In this document: in pieces, positions 3,454 through 54,193 of the stretch
How positions within the stretch are numbered: position 1 is the first letter of the stretch
How the letters are laid out: each line of letters starts with the position of its first letter
DNA from: Zooshikella harenae
Lineage (GTDB): Bacteria; Pseudomonadota; Gammaproteobacteria; Pseudomonadales; Zooshikellaceae
DNA: 64,000 nucleotides
Direction: 5' to 3'
NCBI RefSeq assembly: GCF_018837975.1
Contig: NZ_JAGSOY010000004.1
Location: forward strand, 1-64,000
Notes under the pieces: model-generated
The model's input: the letters and a program-made list of their open reading frames with translations, nothing else
Database searches by the model: none
What the model was told of the DNA's origin: nothing
Translations under genes and position numbers: made by a program

Positions 3454-4128
3454 CTACGCACCTTCCTTCGCGACAGCGATGTTATCAAGCTTAACTTGAA
3501 TGGTAGGGTCAACTTGCTCCGCTTTTTCACCTGCAGCAATTGCCTTGGTATACGCATCACGTGCTTCACTTAACTTGTTAAGTGCAATATAGAAGTCACC
3601 TTTCGCATGTTCATACGACATAAGGTAAGCTTTAGCATTTACATTTTTAATCAAGTCCAACGCTTGTTGAGCATTTTCAGCATTTTGTGCAAAAACAACC
3701 CGCGCCAGGCGGAGCTTCGCTAACAGTTCAATATTTTCTTCAGGCTTTTGATCTAATACCCATTGTAGTTCCTGTTGCGCTTTTTCCAGGTCTTCATCTT
3801 TAACACCCTGCTGTGCTCGCAAAAGGGCTCCAAATTGAGCATACGTTGAACTACTATAATCAGTTTTTAGCTTACCTACTAAATGATTAAAGGTAGATAA
3901 GTCATTTTCAGACAACGTACCAAATTGTCCTTTGTTAACGACATTAATAACATCTTGAAAAAGTGCAGAAGCCTCGGCTGCTTGGGCATCTTGGTAGTTA
4001 TTCCAGGCTTTGTAGCCAAAAACACCCGCAAGTGCTATAGCTAGCCCAACCACAATCGCAGACCCATTTTCTTTCCACCATTGCTTGATGACTTCAATTT
4101 GTTCTTCTTCAGTACGGTAACTATCCAC
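3454..4128 (-). CDS. yfgM: YfgM: TPR-like inner-membrane chaperone partner
   Basis: UPF0070 family. A short cytoplasmic N-terminus is followed by one transmembrane segment (about residues 23-43) and a periplasmic TPR-like helical domain. In E. coli YfgM associates with PpiD and the SecYEG translocon. The start codon is GTG (4126-4128) with a TAGGAG ribosome site upstream. 224 residues, usual size. It is directly followed by bamB; upstream is a 314-bp gap before hisS, which suggests a separate promoter for yfgM-bamB. Confidence 0.9.
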   Translation of the reverse strand: MDSYRTEEEQIEVIKQWWKENGSAIVVGLAIALAGVFGYKAWNNYQDAQAAEASALFQDVINVVNKGQFGTLSENDLSTFNHLVGKLKTDYSSSTYAQFGALLRAQQGVKDEDLEKAQQELQWVLDQKPEENIELLAKLRLARVVFAQNAENAQQALDLIKNVNAKAYLMSYEHAKGDFYIALNKLSEARDAYTKAIAAGEKAEQVDPTIQVKLDNIAVAKEGA

Positions 4129-47008: not shown

Positions 47009-47404
47009 ATGCTGGTAACAATAGCAAGGTTTTCATTTCCCTACGAAGCCCAAATTGCTTGGGCAAAACTTGATGCAGAGGGTATTCCTGCCTTTATTGC
47101 TGACGAGCATACGATTAATATGCAATGGCTTTATTCAAATGCCTTAGGTGGAGTACGTTTACAGGTACCAGAAGAGTACGCTGAACAAGCACAACGTATA
47201 TTAAGCGAGAATAGAGCACATGATTTAGTTACACAGGAGGGCAGTAGTAGTTTACCTTGCCCTCAATGTGGTAGCTCTGACACTGAATATTACCAATACG
47301 GAAAACGTTGTGCTTTTCTTGTGTTCTTATGTATTGATTTTCCACTTTATCCCGTTAAACATGGCATAAAATGTAACCATTGTGGATATAAAACAAAGTT
47401 ATAA
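47009..47404 (+). CDS. DUF2007 domain protein with zinc ribbon
   Basis: 132 residues from ATG 47009. The N-terminal half is the small alpha-beta DUF2007 fold (IARFSFPYEAQIAWAKLDAEGIPAFIAD...LQVPEEYAEQAQRIL), thought to bind a signal ligand. The C-terminal half has a zinc-ribbon-like pair of CxxC motifs (CPQCGSSD and CNHCGYKT) with a hydrophobic patch between. A longer frame from 46886 would add 41 unrelated residues and overlap the dioxygenase end. Function unknown. Confidence 0.7.
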   Translation: MLVTIARFSFPYEAQIAWAKLDAEGIPAFIADEHTINMQWLYSNALGGVRLQVPEEYAEQAQRILSENRAHDLVTQEGSSSLPCPQCGSSDTEYYQYGKRCAFLVFLCIDFPLYPVKHGIKCNHCGYKTKL

Positions 47405-47440
47405 ATTAGTCTATACTCTTTAAATACAACAACTTTTACG

Positions 47441-48280
47441 CTACTCCCGATACTTCTGACAAGTGTCTGAGTCATACAACCAAAGCATTTGTCCAAACAT
47501 CCCCCGCACACACTCTATACTCATGTTGGTGTTAAGCGTCATTTCTCCTGCTTGACCATCTTTACTTACTTCAACTGTCCACTGAGTCTGTACATTAAAA
47601 AATGAATCCCAGCTTTTCCCATCCATTAATAAATCTAAAAACTTTGCTTCTACTCCAGGTAGCGTCGTGAGCTTAAATGGAATTGTTTGGCTGACACTCA
47701 CATTTTCTTTGGGAGAATATCCACGAAAATTGAACAATAATGAGGAAGGTATGTATTCACCATTCCGACTTCTTACTTTACAGTCAATGTCCCTTGAAAC
47801 ACTACATACTGCTTGTGCTTTTCCATGGTTATCGACCTCAATATTCTGAACGTTATAGAGCGTCTTTGATGCCTTAGCATAAACAGGGGAAAGTGACAGC
47901 CCAAGCTGTTGGGCTTCAGCTTGGAGTTGTTTCATATTACTTGCTTTAGCATTAGGTGATAAAATACCAAAGATACGTAAATACGTTTTCCCTTTAAATA
48001 AGCCACTTGACTTCATTTCCTTATCAATTGTTATACTTGGTTCACTTCCTCTTACTTCAATACCTCCTTGTTTTGAAACAAACCATATAAGACTTTGGTC
48101 AGTTGAGTCCGCAAAGAGGTAAAAGTTATCCTGCATATCCTTACTGAAATAATGAGAAATATCATTATCTAACGGACTAACTGGCTTTGCAGATAATGAA
48201 GAGGTAGAAATGATAGAAAAAGTAGATACTGAAAATAGTCCTAAATATTTTAGCCATTTATTGATTATTTTTACTAACAT
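47441..48280 (-). CDS. Secreted hypothetical protein
   Basis: 279 residues from ATG 48280 with AGGGA upstream. Sec-type signal peptide MLVKIINKWLKYLGLFSVSTFSIISTSSLSAKP, cut probably after LSA. The mature part is beta-rich and has six cysteines, including CSVSRDIDCKV and the C-terminal CVRGMFGQMLWLYDSDTC, likely disulfide-bonded in the periplasm. No known domain recognised. An ATG six codons earlier is possible. It is not in an obvious operon. Confidence 0.6.
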   Translation of the reverse strand: MLVKIINKWLKYLGLFSVSTFSIISTSSLSAKPVSPLDNDISHYFSKDMQDNFYLFADSTDQSLIWFVSKQGGIEVRGSEPSITIDKEMKSSGLFKGKTYLRIFGILSPNAKASNMKQLQAEAQQLGLSLSPVYAKASKTLYNVQNIEVDNHGKAQAVCSVSRDIDCKVRSRNGEYIPSSLLFNFRGYSPKENVSVSQTIPFKLTTLPGVEAKFLDLLMDGKSWDSFFNVQTQWTVEVSKDGQAGEMTLNTNMSIECVRGMFGQMLWLYDSDTCQKYRE

Positions 48281-48470
48281 ATATGTTTTCCCTAACATAA
48301 ATACTATTGAGCTTTACCTATAATAAAGAGCATACCTCACTATAATGGTATAAATCACACTAGTTAGTTTTTAACCAATAAACAACTGTAATATTGTATT
48401 AATTATTCCTTTAATACTTAGATTTCAATACATATAAATACATGTATTAATACTCTAAATATTAGCGTTC

Positions 48471-48497
48471 GTGTAAGGAAAATCCTTTTTCTTACAC
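48471..48497. repeat. Inverted repeat downstream of the FabF-like gene
   Basis: GTGTAAG (48471-48477) and CTTACAC (48491-48497) with a 13-nt centre that is itself AT/GC palindromic (GGAAAATCC). Lies in the 277-bp gap between the secreted protein gene and fabF-like gene; may end the latter's transcript, but the T-rich tail is on the plus strand. Nothing else seen in this gap. Confidence 0.35.
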
Positions 48498-48575
48498 ATT
48501 TATTTATCAATTACCTGCCAAACAGTCAGTACTTTTGACTTGTGTAAAGACATGTAAAAACAAGCATAAAATCAC

Positions 48576-49841
48576 TTAATTCCAATGACGAAAGACCACA
48601 CTTGCATTCACACCACCGAAACCAAAGCCATTAGACATAGCATACTCAATTTGCATAGCGCGTGATGAACAACTCACCAAATCAATACCTGCCGCGGCCG
48701 AATCTGGATCTTCTAAATTAAGTGTGGCTGGTGCTGTTTGGTTACGTAAAGCAAGTATTGTATAAATAGCTTCTAACCCACCAGCCGCACCCAATAAGTG
48801 TCCTGTTGAAGATTTTGTAGCACTCACCGCAACCTGTCGATTATTGCCAAATACTGATTTAATCGCTTCTATTTCACCTTTATCGCCAACAGGCGTTGAT
48901 GTTGCGTGTGCATTTATGTGTTGAATTTGTTCAGGCTTTAAGCCCGCCTGAGACAACGCCAACTTCATAGCTCTGGCTGCACCTCTACCATCTTCAGGAC
49001 CAGCTGTCATATGGTATGCATCAGCGGTTGTACCATAACCCACCAGCTCCGCTATCGGCTTGGCCCCACGCGCAAGTGCATGATCAAGGTCTTCAATGAC
49101 TAACATACCCGCACCTTCTCCCATAACAAAGCCATCACGCAACTTATCAAAAGGACGAGATGCTCGTTCTGGCGTATCATTGAATGATGTAGAAAGTGCA
49201 CGCGCAGCAGCGAAACCTGCCAGACTTACTTTATCAATACAAGCTTCTGTACCACCACATATAGCAATATCGGCTTCATTCATTGCAATCATCCTAGCAG
49301 CGTCTCCCACAGCCTGGACGCCTGCTGCGCAAGCTGTTACAGGTGTTCCTATTGGTCCTGTAAATCCATACTTAATAGTGATGTGCCCCGCTGCCAGGTT
49401 AGAAAGAAACGAAGGTATCGTAAAAGGTGAAAGCCGTTTAGGTCCACGATGATCAACCGTTCGTACCGCTCCTGCAATAGCAGGAAAACCACCAACACCA
49501 GACGCTATTACTGTGGCTGTACGTTCCTTCTCTTGTGAAGTTAATGGTTCCCACCCTGCCATAGACAATGCCTCTTGAGCAGCGGCAAGTCCAAAAAGAA
49601 TAAAGCGATCCATTTTTCGCTGTTCTTTAGGTGATGCTACGAGATCAGGATTAAATCCAGCGATGCTGTCTTCCGTAATATCAGGTACCACACCTGCAAC
49701 TTTTACTGGAAGATCATTAACCATATCACCAGGTAAATAGCTTACGCCTGATTTCCCCTGTAAAAGCCGAGACCAACTAGTTTCAACGCCACATCCAAGT
49801 GGTGATACCAGACCCATGCCAGTTACAACAATTCTTTGCAT
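48576..49841 (-). CDS. Beta-ketoacyl-ACP synthase II-like protein (FabF family)
   Basis: Condensing enzyme. The active-site cysteine is in PVTACAAGVQAVGDA, the two histidines in INAHATSTPVGD and KSSTGHLLGAAGG, and the C-terminal NGFGFGGVNASVVF loop is intact. 421 residues from ATG 49841 with AGAAG upstream. The main fabF normally sits in the fab cluster with acpP; this copy stands beside an HxlR regulator, so it is probably a second, conditionally used KAS. Secondary-metabolite genes are absent here. Confidence 0.88.
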   Translation of the reverse strand: MQRIVVTGMGLVSPLGCGVETSWSRLLQGKSGVSYLPGDMVNDLPVKVAGVVPDITEDSIAGFNPDLVASPKEQRKMDRFILFGLAAAQEALSMAGWEPLTSQEKERTATVIASGVGGFPAIAGAVRTVDHRGPKRLSPFTIPSFLSNLAAGHITIKYGFTGPIGTPVTACAAGVQAVGDAARMIAMNEADIAICGGTEACIDKVSLAGFAAARALSTSFNDTPERASRPFDKLRDGFVMGEGAGMLVIEDLDHALARGAKPIAELVGYGTTADAYHMTAGPEDGRGAARAMKLALSQAGLKPEQIQHINAHATSTPVGDKGEIEAIKSVFGNNRQVAVSATKSSTGHLLGAAGGLEAIYTILALRNQTAPATLNLEDPDSAAAGIDLVSCSSRAMQIEYAMSNGFGFGGVNASVVFRHWN

Positions 49842-49904
49842 ACGCAACTTCTACCTTACAGTTAATGAATGGTTATAGATCTCACCAGATGCTGGAGAGC
49901 CATA

Positions 49905-50420
49905 TTAGTCTGTCTGTGTAGGGTTCTTTGATTGAAGAGTTTTAAGCAGTCCAATTCGCTGCAACGTTTGCTCTGTGGCTGCAGGTCCTGGAAGTAATAC
50001 GGTGTTTTCAGGGGTAATACGTTCGCCAGTGTCAGCATCAACGACAATAGCCTGTCGTACTTCACCTGTCGCACGATTGCCCAAATGCATCGCGATTTGG
50101 TCTGATGGTAGATGACGATTTCCCCAGGCAAAAAGAGCGATAGCAACAGGATAAAAATCCCGCCCTTTGGACGTTAAAATATATTCATAACGTGGGGGAC
50201 GCTCCATATATTGATGTCGCTCAAACAGCCCTTCACTCGTCAAATGTTTTAAACGACGAGAAAGGATATTAGTGGATACTCCAAGACTTTGCTGAAACTC
50301 ATCAAAACGTTTCAAGCCTTGAAAGGCATCACGTAATATCAAAATACTCCACCAGTCGCCAACACTTTCTAGCGCACGGGCTGCGGGACATTCAAATGAA
50401 AGAAAGCTTGTTCGTTGCAT
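49905..50420 (-). CDS. HxlR-family transcriptional regulator
   Basis: 171 residues. The HxlR winged helix is at the N-terminus: CPAARALESVGDWWSILILRDAFQGLKRFDEFQQSLGVSTNILSRRLKHL read in overlapping parts, with the single Cys (Cys11) that is redox-active in some relatives. A longer C-terminal part follows (ALFAWGNRHLPSDQIAMHLG). Located 63 bp upstream of the FabF-like gene in the same direction, so likely one transcript. Confidence 0.88.
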   Translation of the reverse strand: MQRTSFLSFECPAARALESVGDWWSILILRDAFQGLKRFDEFQQSLGVSTNILSRRLKHLTSEGLFERHQYMERPPRYEYILTSKGRDFYPVAIALFAWGNRHLPSDQIAMHLGNRATGEVRQAIVVDADTGERITPENTVLLPGPAATEQTLQRIGLLKTLQSKNPTQTD

Positions 50421-50498
50421 CCCAAAATCATAGCCAAGTAACTTCTATTATGCAAGTTACTATAACAAACTGTAAATGATGTATTTGCAAATCACTAT

Positions 50499-51497
50499 TT
50501 ATTGAGACTTTACGAGATGAGCAAAACCATGCTGAGTCAAACTACCTTCCATTATTTTAATCACATGTTTTGTCACAGTCTGTGGTATTACATCTGACGC
50601 TGTTTTATTTGACAGTATCAAGTCAGAAAAATGGGCTGCTTCAAATTGAAAGCCACCTCCAGCAATGGGTTCATTAATCGTAAACGAATTTCCTTGCCAT
50701 TGAATACTAATCTTTTTCGGATTCCACCATTTATCGTGAATCACTATTTCAAGATCAGGTCCTTTGATTATTGCCTCTCGAGGTAAATGAGACACTATTG
50801 ATGCAGTAAGCTTGCCCTGTATTGGCGAATTAAATTTAAACTCTGCATGCTCATCAACACCAATGTTGTAATATGTTGATAATAAACGGCTTGAGGGTAA
50901 AGGCAACTGCCCAGTTAATTGGTAGGCTAAATTACAATAAAACCACAACAGATAAACACCAATATCAAGAGTAACTCCACCACTAAGCGATTGATTAAAA
51001 ATCCAATGATTTTCATTAAATTCAAGCTGACTACCGTTAGAGGCTTCAATTGAATGGATTTGAATACCATTCTTTTTTAAAAAATCGAGTAGTTGTTGAT
51101 AAGCGGGAAATGTTACTGTTTTCATGGCTTCAAGACATAAACAGTTTTTTGCTTTGGCTAAAGCGGTAAGTTCATCCCACTCTTTTTCATTAATGGTTGC
51201 CGGTTTTTCTATTAATACATGCTTACCTTTTTCCAAGAAAATTGTTGCAAGCGATTTATGAAAAGGATGAATACTGGCGACATACACGACATCTATGGCA
51301 GGGTCTTCCGCCAACTCAAGATAAGAATACCCATTATTACACCCATACTGTTGAGCAAAAGACTCAGCTTGTTTTATATTCCGAGATGCAACAGCAACCA
51401 GTTGTGCATTAGGCGTATGTTGCGTTAAATCCTGTGCAAAACGATGAGCAATACTGCCCAGTCCAGCAATGCCCCATTTCACGCTTGTGCTCTGCAT
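50499..51497 (-). CDS. Gfo/Idh/MocA-family oxidoreductase
   Basis: 332 residues. The N-terminal Rossmann fold starts VKWGIAGLGSIAHRFAQDL and contains the family motif HVLIEKPATI with the conserved EKP. The C-terminal alpha-beta domain follows (LSGGVTLDIGVYLLWFYCNLAYQ). These enzymes are mostly NAD(P)-dependent dehydrogenases of sugars, inositols or cyclic diols. The closest in pattern are dihydrodiol/deoxysugar types; the substrate cannot be told. It stands alone, 163 bp downstream of the Y RNA. Confidence 0.87.
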   Translation of the reverse strand: MQSTSVKWGIAGLGSIAHRFAQDLTQHTPNAQLVAVASRNIKQAESFAQQYGCNNGYSYLELAEDPAIDVVYVASIHPFHKSLATIFLEKGKHVLIEKPATINEKEWDELTALAKAKNCLCLEAMKTVTFPAYQQLLDFLKKNGIQIHSIEASNGSQLEFNENHWIFNQSLSGGVTLDIGVYLLWFYCNLAYQLTGQLPLPSSRLLSTYYNIGVDEHAEFKFNSPIQGKLTASIVSHLPREAIIKGPDLEIVIHDKWWNPKKISIQWQGNSFTINEPIAGGGFQFEAAHFSDLILSNKTASDVIPQTVTKHVIKIMEGSLTQHGFAHLVKSQ

Positions 51498-51660
51498 AAT
51501 TAGATTACTCTTTTGTAGCCATACCTAAGACATACAAAATAATATACAGGTCGTTAGCGATTTAACAAAGCAATAAGAGGTGCGGTGACAAAAAGTGTTG
51601 AAACACGTTTTGTTTTAAGCAATGTAGTTTCAACTGCATTCACCGCAGTGTGTATATTGA

Positions 51661-51795
51661 CGACAAAAAAGAATGAGACATTCCTGCTCTACCATTGAGC
51701 TACTATCTATTATTGAGATAGGCAGGACTCGAACCTGCAACCCGGACATTAACAATGTAGTCCCATAGGCATTCGCCAATGTGGCCCGTCGTATA
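51661..51795 (-). ncRNA. Y RNA with permuted tRNA-like module (YrlA type)
   Basis: About 130 nt transcribed from the minus strand, 194 bp downstream of the Ro60 gene. Read 5' to 3', a TTGTTAA-containing arm comes first (AAC at 51751-51753 on the plus strand). A T-arm follows (GCAGG-TTCGAGT-CCTGC, 51722-51738), then an acceptor-like helix CTATCT/AGATAG closed by a 7-nt loop (51703-51721). A D-arm comes last (GCTC-AATGGTA-GAGC, 51686-51700). The flanks pair as GAATG (51770-51774) with CATTC (51671-51675), then TTTTTT. This order, T-arm before D-arm with the ends in a common stem, is that of the tRNA mimic of bacterial YrlA RNAs, which bind Ro60 (Rsr). A TATAAT lies at 51810-51815. Confidence 0.75.
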
Positions 51796-51914
51796 GCGTG
51801 TAGTTATAAATTATATGCAACAAGTTTTTTTACGAGACAGCATATACTCTAAATGTAGTCTCACAATGCATTTGCATTATTAATTAATCTACACACATTA
51901 CTTTGGGCTAAATA

Positions 51915-51975
51915 GGTCAACAAGAAATGATTAAGATAGATATCGTGGAAGGATGTAATCTTAATCGGCATTTGA
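51915..51975 (-). ncRNA. Second candidate Y RNA or rsr 3' hairpin
   Basis: Between the Ro60 stop and the first Y RNA. On the minus strand GGTCAA (51970-51975) pairs with TTGACC (51915-51920), then GATTAAGAT (51958-51966) with ATCTTAATC (51929-51937); the apical loop is about 20 nt. GGTCAAATG and TTGACC resemble the two conserved strands of the Ro-binding helix of Y RNAs. In Salmonella rsr is followed by yrlB and yrlA, the order seen here. It could also be just a terminator-like hairpin of rsr. Confidence 0.35.
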
Positions 51976-51988
51976 CCAGATGAGACAG

Positions 51989-53548
51989 TTACAATTCTAC
52001 CTGATTAATTTCATTTAGCCAACTGTTTGGTTCACCTTTTATAAAAGAATTTAAAACATTAAATACATTATCAGAAAATCCTCCAACATTTAAAATATCA
52101 GCTCGCTCCACTGCTTGTGAATAGCTATTGGGTACTACATCAATACAAACCATTTTTGCATTTGGACTACGTCGCTTTAACAACTCCCATTGCTGCATAA
52201 CAGCTGTACCAGAGGAATAAGCATAGCGAGATGTCGTATCTATCCATGATTCATTATCACTGATATAAACCACAGTATCTGCGTTTACATGCTTTTTCTT
52301 CATTGCTATCAAAGGCGCAGCACAGTTTGTACCTCCTCCTCCAAGCTGAGCTAAACGTGTAGCATTCGTTAACACAGAATCACGAGGATTTAATTTAACT
52401 TTATGTATATCTGTAGCAAATGGAATAACCTCTGCTTCTGGGTTTTTAGCTAAAATAGCAGCAGCCACTAATGCAGCAACGTCAATACAACGTACTTTAC
52501 TTGATGAACCTGGTCGATAACCTGTTACGGACTGCGTCATCGAACCACTCGTATCCGGTAGTACATACACTTTACCAGTAATAACAGGAACATTTTCCAA
52601 AGCAATTTCCATAGCATCTTGCAAAGCATCCATTATTTTATTTGGCATATCATCAACAGCCATATAATAGGCAGCCATCAACTGATATGGAAAAACACGG
52701 GCTTTTTTTATTGCGCGCTCATCACGTAAACGTTCAGCAATTAAATGTACAAGCTCTTTATTTTTAAACACATCATGCCGTGCAAATGTATTCAAATTCA
52801 TACGTGTCATTTGCCAACTCGCCTGGCGCGCAATTTCCTGCCAGTGCTTTGTATTTAAATCAAGCGCAGTTAACAAACGAAAGTCAACATTAGGCAAATT
52901 ATCTGTTGGTTTAACCTTAAACAGCTCATAATCTTTCACAATTTGTGGTAAATATTCTGCACTATAAGGTTTATCAATCAGGTAACCATAAAATGCTTCT
53001 CGCATTTTATTCGCAGGCTTTGGCCGTACCATTTTAATTACATCGCTCAAAGACGGTGTATTTCCTACTGAATCTTTAAATAATGCAGCTTCGCCACGCT
53101 GATTAATCCACTGCTGAACCAATCGTTTTGGCAGCGTACCTAACGATTGACGCCCCGTTACACCTGAACGAATTATTTGGATAAAATTACGTAGCATTCG
53201 GCCATTATCGATGACTCGATTAAATACTTTGGGTAATAATTCTGGCGCTTCAATTGATAGCAATGCGGTTAATAATGCCGGCATATCTTTCATATGCCCT
53301 TTTTCTCGCGTATAAATCGCCAACTTAGCAAGAAACGCTGGTGAAACCTGGGTTTCTAATTCTAGCACCTTATCTAACTGCTCTTGAGCACCAACGTAAT
53401 AGGTATTATTAAAACAACCTGTAATCGCATATTGCGCCAAAGCATGTTCAGCCGTTAATTGATAGGCCAGCCCACCAACACGATTCGTAGTATCTGCTAC
53501 TTGAACAGTACAGTTTCGTTGATTTTGAAATAATGTGTTATTTGCCAT
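51989..53548 (-). CDS. rsr: Ro60 orthologue Rsr (TROVE plus vWA)
   Basis: RNA-binding ring protein of Ro ribonucleoproteins. 519 residues: the N-terminal TROVE domain of HEAT-like helices (about 20-320, for example LAKLAIYTREKGHMKDMPAL and QIIRSGVTGRQSLG) is followed by a vWA domain with an intact MIDAS motif DTSGS (332-336), threonine in GGGGTNC and Asp in YISDNES. In Deinococcus and Salmonella the protein binds Y RNAs that gate access of exonucleases such as PNPase or tether Rsr to them; it acts in RNA decay after stress. Here it is followed by one clear and one possible Y RNA. No rtcB is in the window. Confidence 0.93.
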   Translation of the reverse strand: MANNTLFQNQRNCTVQVADTTNRVGGLAYQLTAEHALAQYAITGCFNNTYYVGAQEQLDKVLELETQVSPAFLAKLAIYTREKGHMKDMPALLTALLSIEAPELLPKVFNRVIDNGRMLRNFIQIIRSGVTGRQSLGTLPKRLVQQWINQRGEAALFKDSVGNTPSLSDVIKMVRPKPANKMREAFYGYLIDKPYSAEYLPQIVKDYELFKVKPTDNLPNVDFRLLTALDLNTKHWQEIARQASWQMTRMNLNTFARHDVFKNKELVHLIAERLRDERAIKKARVFPYQLMAAYYMAVDDMPNKIMDALQDAMEIALENVPVITGKVYVLPDTSGSMTQSVTGYRPGSSSKVRCIDVAALVAAAILAKNPEAEVIPFATDIHKVKLNPRDSVLTNATRLAQLGGGGTNCAAPLIAMKKKHVNADTVVYISDNESWIDTTSRYAYSSGTAVMQQWELLKRRSPNAKMVCIDVVPNSYSQAVERADILNVGGFSDNVFNVLNSFIKGEPNSWLNEINQVEL

Positions 53549-53896
53549 GGGCTTTTCTCATTTTTTTAATCTTTACAACAGGAAAGGTCTAAACCTTCTC
53601 CTTTAATGTCCTCCCTATCTCAACAGCATTCAGTGTGCCAAGTTAGCCGAAACACCTAAAATTTATATAACCAATTGATTTTAAATGACTACCCTCTACT
53701 TTATTCACTCCCCCTCTTGCTTAACTCAACAGCCATACTATCTATAAAAATATTTTTATATTTATATAGATAAACAACATATTTCAACTAAACAACTTAT
53801 CTACAGTTGCTGCACTTCAATGATCATCTACACTTTTGGTAAAGGCTTGCCCTATAAAATCTGGGCTAAATGAATGCGTGTGTTGAGGTTAACAGC
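53549..53896. other. Divergent rsr-comFB intergenic region
   Basis: 348 bp, AT-rich. Should hold the rsr and comFB promoters; no strong boxes, no sigma-54 sequence seen beside rsr. No gene. Confidence 0.4.
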
Positions 53897-54193
53897 ATGG
53901 CTTTGCAAGAAGAGTTTCATAACTATTATGAAACAATGGTCGTAGACTACATTACACAGGAATATCGTAATCAAGCAGAGATGGATGAGATGATTGTCGA
54001 TGTGGCTTGTGTTGCTCTCAATCACCTTCCTCCTCGATACATTCATCATGATATCGATATGGCTTATTACCTTTCACCAAAAGAACGTAAAGAGATGGAG
54101 AAAAAAGTTCGGGATGCGGTAGAAGATGCGATTCAGTTCGTCTATAAGCGTCGAAATAAAGAAGCTGAAGAACAATCCGCATCGGCCTCATGA
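53897..54193 (+). CDS. ComFB-family protein
   Basis: 98 residues from ATG 53897 with GAGG upstream. The late-competence ComFB signature is visible: VDVACVALNHLPPRYIHHDIDMAYYLS (read in two parts), with a helical N-terminus (EEFHNYYETMVVDYI). It lacks the zinc cysteines of the Bacillus protein. In cyanobacteria and others ComFB proteins bind c-di-GMP; that has not been shown for this type. C-terminal tail charged. Divergent from rsr but no functional link is known. Confidence 0.75.
   Translation: MALQEEFHNYYETMVVDYITQEYRNQAEMDEMIVDVACVALNHLPPRYIHHDIDMAYYLSPKERKEMEKKVRDAVEDAIQFVYKRRNKEAEEQSASAS

Follow-up and report, generated by a model that had tools for sequence, protein, structure and literature searches.

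One Rsr and a tandem array of four predicted Y RNAs form a probable RtcR-induced Ro ribonucleoprotein cluster in Zooshikella harenae

We analysed a stretch of 64,000 nucleotides from the genome of Zooshikella harenae (hereafter the window) and found that it carries a gene for a Ro60-family protein, Rsr, followed on the same strand by a tandem array of four Y RNA structures. The locus is real and of a known kind, and we think it likely that it is an RtcR-induced Ro ribonucleoprotein (RNP) cluster of one Rsr with four Y RNAs. What is new here is the number and mix of the Y RNAs, the uncoupling of rsr from rtcBA with the regulatory switch apparently kept, and the missing rtcA. An earlier note on this DNA, made from the letters alone, had described rsr and a Y RNA with a permuted tRNA-like module; its overall interpretation is supported, and it was incomplete and wrong in some details, which are given below. 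The coordinates of all features are collected in Table 1.

Table 1. Features of the rsr locus, in window coordinates
Feature	Position	Strand	Basis
rsr, Ro60-family protein, 519 aa	51989..53548	(-)	ORF, Pfam, predicted fold
Y1, short Y RNA, 63 nt; helix 1 GGUCAA/UUGACC	51915..51977	(-)	scanner, R1, unconstrained fold
Y2, short Y RNA, 63 nt; helix 1 AUGCAA/UUGCAU	51815..51877	(-)	scanner, R1, unconstrained fold
Y3, YrlA-type Y RNA with permuted tRNA-like module; helix 1 AUUGGCGA/UCGUCAAU	51656..51780	(-)	Rfam RF02553, scanner, R1
T-arm of Y3, 5 bp, 7-nt loop UUCGAGU	51722..51738	(-)	fold and Rfam alignment
Acceptor-like hairpin of Y3, 6 bp, 7-nt loop	51703..51721	(-)	fold and Rfam alignment
D-arm of Y3, 4 bp, loop AAUGGUA	51686..51700	(-)	fold and Rfam alignment
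Y4, short Y RNA, 67 nt; helix 1 UGCGGUGA/UCACCGCA	51581..51647	(-)	scanner, R1, unconstrained fold
Predicted sigma54-type -24/-12 promoter, TGGCAC-N5-ATGC, 92 nt before rsr start	53625..53640	(-)	score 14 of 15
Two imperfect TATCT-N5-GATA palindromes, 20 nt apart, candidate RtcR enhancer	53739..53772 (53739-53752, 53759-53772)	(.)	motif search

A Ro60-family protein with an intact MIDAS

The ORF listing gives rsr as a complete reading frame for a full-length Ro60/Rsr protein. This protein matches the Pfam models vWA_Ro60 (56.5 bits, cut-off 27.7) and TROVE (34.7 bits, cut-off 23), the latter match being limited to residues 233-303; in a six-frame search of the genome the TROVE model reached 22.2 bits at rsr, slightly below its cut-off. 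D332, S334, S336, T407 and D431, which we take to be the expected MIDAS residues, are invariant in 26 of 26 Rsr sequences. A structure model built from 26 sequences (pLDDT 84, pTM 0.80) has the Ro60 ring fold: it superimposes on 1yvp with a TM score of 0.73, showing the Ro60 fold across almost its whole length, and on 2i91 with a Z score of 29.4 at 3.4 A over 467 residues. The nearest solved relatives by sequence are Rsr of Deinococcus radiodurans (2nvo), two TROVE entries (9l5y and 9kop) and vertebrate Ro60. With both Pfam matches above their cut-offs, the conserved MIDAS residues and the Ro60 fold, the TROVE-vWA protein with an intact MIDAS that the earlier note had recognized is confirmed. 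The NCBIfam Rsr equivalog model NF041674 gives the protein 91.3 bits, far from its cut-off of 900; judged by its sequence, Rsr of the window is related to, yet no equivalog of, the proteins behind that model.

A YrlA-type Y RNA with a permuted tRNA-like module

The RNA that had been noticed previously is the third of the array, Y3. It starts approximately 209 nt past the rsr stop codon, and not 194 bp downstream of the gene as had been stated. The search with a YrlA covariance model that the earlier note had proposed placed a match at 51654-51779 (-) to the full Rfam model (RF02553; 69.7 bits, E 6.4e-14), just 0.7 bits above the gathering cut-off of 69 and with the loop that follows helix 2 enlarged by a long insert, so that a YrlA-type Y RNA does lie downstream of rsr. 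Both the fold and the Rfam alignment have the T-arm first, then the acceptor-like hairpin with its 7-nt loop, then the D-arm, which is the permuted order described before. The ends, which had been given as paired GAATG/CATTC, pair instead as AUUGGCGA/UCGUCAAU, and AAUGC is unpaired in the Rfam consensus. Y3 is also found at 42.3 bits (E 1.3e-10) by R1, a covariance model that we made from 30 short units, with Y1, Y2 and Y4 included and Y3 outside the training set.

The T-arm and D-arm of Y3 are tRNA-like, and related units at two loci (L008 and L009) give sub-threshold tmRNA matches, as might be expected if Y3 were a decayed tRNA or tmRNA. We rejected this reading as exceedingly improbable, given that Y3 has a full-length match to Rfam YrlA and a permuted arm order and is called neither tRNA nor tmRNA by ARAGORN; moreover, it carries the Y core.

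Three short Y RNAs in the same array

The number of Y RNAs behind rsr is four: Y3 stands as the one previously described, and Y1, Y2 and Y4 had been missed. All four lie within the same 400 nt 3' of rsr (51581-51977 (-)). The Y RNA core runs in the order helix 1, AAUGC, helix 2, UACA, a variable part, helix 2', UUGU and helix 1', and a scanner for this core found four matches on the two strands of the 64-kb window, all 3' of rsr and with scores of 14-16. Run on 1000 kb of random sequence from a Markov model with the local composition, the same scanner found six matches, 0 of them at a score of at least 11. The sequence of helix 1 is different in each of the four units and is paired in all of them. 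The helices of Y1, Y2 and Y4 are uninterrupted, none of the invariant motifs is missing, and in an unconstrained fold the three units adopt the two-helix form with AAUGC, UACA and UUGU and no tRNA module, that is, the form of a short Y RNA. R1 scores them at 51.9, 47.5 and 63.0 bits, respectively, all three being in its training set.

The short units resemble the known YrlB in being short and two-helix, whereas the Rfam YrlB model (RF02565) rejects all three: Y1 reaches 22 bits against a gathering cut-off of 97, and Y2 and Y4 have no Rfam match at E<=1. R1 finds both these units and an enterobacterial YrlB (43.2 bits; 105.5 bits with Rfam for the same YrlB), and the short units therefore share the YrlB architecture. 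When run on two enterobacterial YrlA copies, one of them adjoining that YrlB, R1 found neither, and it thus misses some full-size units. Over the genome of Z. harenae itself R1 found no unit outside the cluster, a null result that is weak because scoring covered only 150 of the 1491 candidates and did not list even Y3.

The earlier note had named two findings that would refute it: no score with a YrlA model, and no covariation in the T-arm, D-arm and closing helices among relatives. Across the 30 short units (alignment A2) both sides change in 14 of 16 pairs, a covariation that is partly built in, since the units were picked by a scanner that demands pairing. We therefore turned to a fairer test with a sequence-only model, R2, run on 57 loci that contributed nothing to its training; some of these loci are closely related to ones used in training, and most of the 103 matches span the 5' part only. 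In these matches 89.6% of 442 cells pair, compared with 73.3% (sd 1.4) in shuffled alignments and at most 52.6% when the matches are slid out of register. Both sides change in 10 of 13 pairs against 6.4 in shuffles (0 of 500 shuffles as high), and the count of further pair types does not exceed that of the shuffles (24 versus 22.4; 126 of 500 as high). Across relatives, the helices that close the Y RNA core hence covary. With the YrlA score above its gathering cut-off, both checks came out in favour of the note, the second as far as these core helices are concerned.

Y RNA arrays at related rsr loci

For comparison we assembled 86 loci, namely the window, five others and 80 named loci with rsr; these last came from searching species genomes and are the best 80 of the 553 matches listed. 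Among the listed loci the scanner gave 200 matches at a score of at least 11 in the 124 kb directly 3' of rsr and 26 elsewhere in 1967 kb, with none antisense to rsr. The 26 sit in nine listed loci, all on the rsr strand; these units lie upstream of rsr in L033, L034, L036, L045, L074, L083 and L088, and approximately 3 kb downstream of it in L043 and L051. On the scanner background, the related loci and the held-out covariation we rejected the idea that the short units are chance hairpins.

Joining model and scanner matches gave 308 units in 85 of the listed loci. One model match, at 12705 of L024 on the strand opposite rsr, is probably false and is kept in the totals of 263 and 308, and some very long scanner matches may also be wrong. 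Array sizes were counted wherever 1 kb or more of 3' flank was available, which was so in 82 of the listed loci, the window among them: at least two units are present in 74 of the 82, at least four in 39 and none in 2, the largest array has eight units, and a short unit is present in 62. The closest named Rsr among the matches listed (67%) is that of Hahella sp. HN01 (L029), which has an array of six units and, over 6 kb on the downstream side, no match to RtcB; its mix of units differs from that of the window, and its contig starts 134 nt before rsr. In 11 of these loci that were chosen by hand, several of them for their large arrays, the joined set holds 61 units, whereas Rfam, applied with its own cut-offs, finds 5. 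Since 56 of 61 units were missed in this sample, array sizes have probably been under-recorded. None of the titles returned by a full-text literature search concerns bacterial arrays with three or more Y RNAs, a result at the level of titles; such arrays may already be in the literature.

The same loci bear on whether Y3 alone works and Y1, Y2 and Y4 are decayed copies left after loss of the tRNA module. Rfam reports Y3 alone, and decay is known in the family: in a genome of the family (G002), rsr is reduced to a C-terminal piece of 60 aa (68% identical, one in-frame stop), followed by a relic in which, by eye, the 5' half of Y3 is joined to the 3' half of Y4 (27.7 bits). Yet an intact Y1 also follows this rsr piece in G002, and helix 1 of that Y1 is preserved by a two-sided change (U-A to C-G relative to Y1 of the window). 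The uninterrupted helices and invariant motifs of Y1, Y2 and Y4, the frequency of short units among the listed loci, the covariation of the core helices in held-out loci and the shortness of the known YrlB likewise argue against decay, and we regard it as improbable.

Several further loci are of note in their own right. Myxococcus phage Mx1 (L019 3001-4650) encodes a full-length Rsr that is 48.5% identical to Rsr of the window, and neither the scanner nor R1 found a Y core match in that locus. Two unverified GenBank 'phage' contigs (L145 and L146) contain yrlB, yrlA and the last part of rsr, and they resemble enterobacterial DNA. In a Calditrichia MAG, two tRNA genes identified by Rfam lie within the Y RNA array (L059 7910-7983 and 8144-8220).

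Classes of units and their order along the arrays

The units were divided into classes by length, with the cuts made after the data had been seen; 261 of the 308 units fall into three bins and 47 outside them. In the listed loci, units of <=90 nt (n=101) have the T-loop motif in 1 case and the D-arm motif in 0, those of 92-105 nt (n=41) have the T-loop motif in 27 and the D-arm motif in 0, and those of 115-145 nt (n=119) have the T motif in 105 and the D motif in 97. Of 12 units of 92-105 nt that were inspected, most form a T-arm together with an acceptor-like hairpin. This middle class looks like half a tRNA mimic; it occurs in L030, L044, L060, L069, L072, L076, L103 and others, with none in the window.

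The classes tend to follow an order. Along the listed arrays short units precede middle units in 41 of 43 pairs, short precede full units in 121 of 147, and middle precede full in 60 of 77, each count exceeding the largest of 2000 within-array shuffles. After thinning to 58 loci with less than 75% Rsr identity, the counts were 20/22 (short-middle), 74/98 (short-full) and 34/44 (middle-full), with 1, 0 and 4 of 2000 shuffles as high; thinning at 68% left 42 loci and counts of 17/19, 58/78 and 29/37, with 6, 1 and 9 of 2000 shuffles as high, respectively. The window, with its order short, short, full, short, fits this trend at the start and breaks it at the end. The yrlB-yrlA order reported for Salmonella (PMC9879122) agrees with short before full.

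A predicted sigma54-type promoter before rsr, with RtcR and RtcB elsewhere in the genome

The usual layout among the listed loci is a divergent rtcR, followed by rsr, the Y RNAs, rtcB and rtcA, and within the DNA examined RtcB lies near rsr in 69 of 85 listed loci, RtcR in 62 and RtcA in 47. The ORF listing of the window holds no rtcR, rtcB or rtcA around rsr, so rtcBA do not share its operon. The earlier note had drawn attention to an rsr locus without rtcB; this is true of the window, while RtcB and RtcR are both encoded elsewhere in the genome. There are two RtcB genes, on contigs C328 and C1, the second of which (L022 6737-7867, on C1) is of the PRK09588/TIGR03073 kind. RtcR lies beside sbcDC and scores 789 with its NCBIfam equivalog model (cut-off 650). 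RtcR was found in 5/5 genomes of the family examined, and RtcA in 0/5, Z. harenae included, by a search that was positive in its controls, E. coli and four archaea. In an observation apart from these, three rsr loci of Massilia (L048, L056 and L065, at approximately 3860-4090 (-)) have tandem glycine riboswitches just past rtcR.

The predicted promoter upstream of rsr is the only sigma54-type site in the window with a score of at least 14; in 1925 kb of related loci there are 52 such sites on both strands, rsr promoters included. A sigma54-type site with a score of at least 11 precedes rsr in 66 of 83 listed loci, some at implausible distances from the gene. Two features expected of an RtcR regulon member thus come together here, the predicted sigma54-type promoter of rsr and, in the same genome, a gene for RtcR. 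The search gave no good site before sbcD (best 8 of 15), rtcR (10) or the second rtcB (11). Between 51400 and 53900 we found nothing clear in the way of sigma70-like promoters (12 versus 8.7 expected) or terminator-like sites (5 versus 2.1 expected).

Each of the two palindromes upstream of rsr has one mismatch. Similar elements precede rtcB: in 5/5 family genomes there is TTGGCATG plus a -12-like element, in which Z. harenae (G000) and a congener (G001) have GT where GC is usual. TATCT-N5-GATA occurs once before rtcB in these two genomes and twice in G002, G003 and G004, the pairs in these 3/5 genomes being 20-21 nt apart. Palindromes as good as those of rsr occur at 29 sites in 177 kb of family DNA, and single palindromes are not enriched in the window over shuffled sequence (16 versus 14.4), so that the argument is one of the pair, its spacing and its place. 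We read these motifs as a single RtcR regulon divided between two sites in the genome, with rsr uncoupled from rtcBA and the RtcR/sigma54 switch apparently kept. The mismatch in each rsr palindrome, the lone palindrome before rtcB in two of the five genomes and the GT variant of the -12-like element weigh against this reading.

The absence of an RtcA match bears on how such a switch is thrown. In Salmonella, RtcR is reported to bind tRNA fragments that end in a 2',3'-cyclic phosphate, with RtcA promoting induction (PMC7790460), and in E. coli RtcA and RtcB are reported to bind RtcR and to be both required for its action (PMC9650030), a requirement that counts against RtcR control in a genome with no RtcA match. 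A family with RtcR and RtcB and no RtcA is therefore informative: having RtcR, RtcB and, here, Rsr with no detectable RtcA, it offers a natural test of whether the RtcR signal needs RtcA in order to be made or passed on.

A proposed working of the cluster and comparison with known systems

If the locus is an RtcR-induced Ro RNP cluster, RtcR would probably switch the operon on through sigma54 as RNAs with 2',3'-cyclic phosphate ends accumulate, and the four Y RNAs would probably be expressed as one transcript and processed from the array. The rsr operon would be the Ro half of an RNA-repair regulon, with rtcB elsewhere and rtcA not found. Each Y RNA is predicted to bind the outside of the Rsr ring via its two-helix core. 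In Deinococcus and Salmonella, the Y RNA is reported to bind Rsr through its lower stem, to gate the ring and to connect it with PNPase (PMC8394870, PMC4726728). By analogy, Y3 would likely be a tether, whose tRNA-like module would hold Rsr to an exonuclease such as PNPase, and Y1, Y2 and Y4 would likely be gates or a reserve on the ring, where they might also serve as stabilisers or competitors. As a single ring protein is accompanied here by three short Y RNAs and a tRNA mimic, gating and tethering could be genetically separable in one organism.

The comparable locus of Salmonella Typhimurium is described as rsr-yrlB-yrlA-rtcB-rtcA with a divergent rtcR (PMC9879122, PMC7790460). Both systems have Rsr, a short Y RNA followed by a tRNA-mimic Y RNA, and a sigma54 promoter, predicted in Z. 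harenae, with RtcR. They differ in that Z. harenae has four Y RNAs (short, short, tRNA mimic, short) where Salmonella has two, and in that here rtcR and rtcB are non-adjacent and no rtcA was found. With the RYPER system of D. radiodurans (PMC8394870, PMC4726728), the cluster shares the ring fold (2nvo, Z 23.6) and a Y RNA, whereas the two Rsr proteins are approximately 20% identical in the structural alignment, there are several Y RNAs here, and PNPase is a putative partner in Z. harenae.

More tentatively, and as a possibility to which we give clearly less weight than to the RtcR-induced cluster itself, the Ro proteins of this clade may use a graded, ordered kit of Y RNAs, running from short units without a tRNA module through an approximately 100-nt half-tRNA mimic to a full tRNA mimic, with the kit, in the family of Z. 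harenae, split from rtcBA and induced by an RtcA-independent RtcR. Were this so, swapping the Y RNA would give one ring different partners.

The segment that carries rsr and its neighbours

The congener G001 aligns to the window as far as 47396 and resumes at 53815, with 85 nt in between; therefore a segment of approximately 6.4 kb that includes rsr was either inserted here or lost from the congener, its junctions having been inspected by eye only. The segment (47397-53814) contains a hypothetical gene, a beta-ketoacyl-ACP synthase, a small MarR/HxlR-like regulator, a GFO/IDH/MocA oxidoreductase, the Y array and rsr. An Rsr match is present in 2/56 genomes of the order and in 8/369 sampled genomes of the class, own genome included in both counts and some matches in the latter being weak; the second genome of the order is G002 with its C-terminal piece. 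That the congener lacks exactly this segment, and that Rsr is found in so few relatives of the order, could mean that rsr and its array are the cargo of a mobile segment and are expressed without RtcR. We consider this unlikely. The neighbours in the segment resemble everyday genes of metabolism and regulation, none of the scanned proteins is a recombinase, and the remnant in G002 allows for loss instead of gain; in addition, a sigma54-type site and a palindrome pair precede rsr, and RtcR is present in every family genome examined.

A defence island was also considered and rejected, as PADLOC matched neither Rsr nor four neighbouring proteins of the 6.4-kb segment. RtcR itself matches the RtcR models of PADLOC and, weakly, three other entries. 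Divergent from rsr lies a ComFB-domain gene (53870-54193), which in G001, in the absence of rsr, stands next to a fumarase gene.
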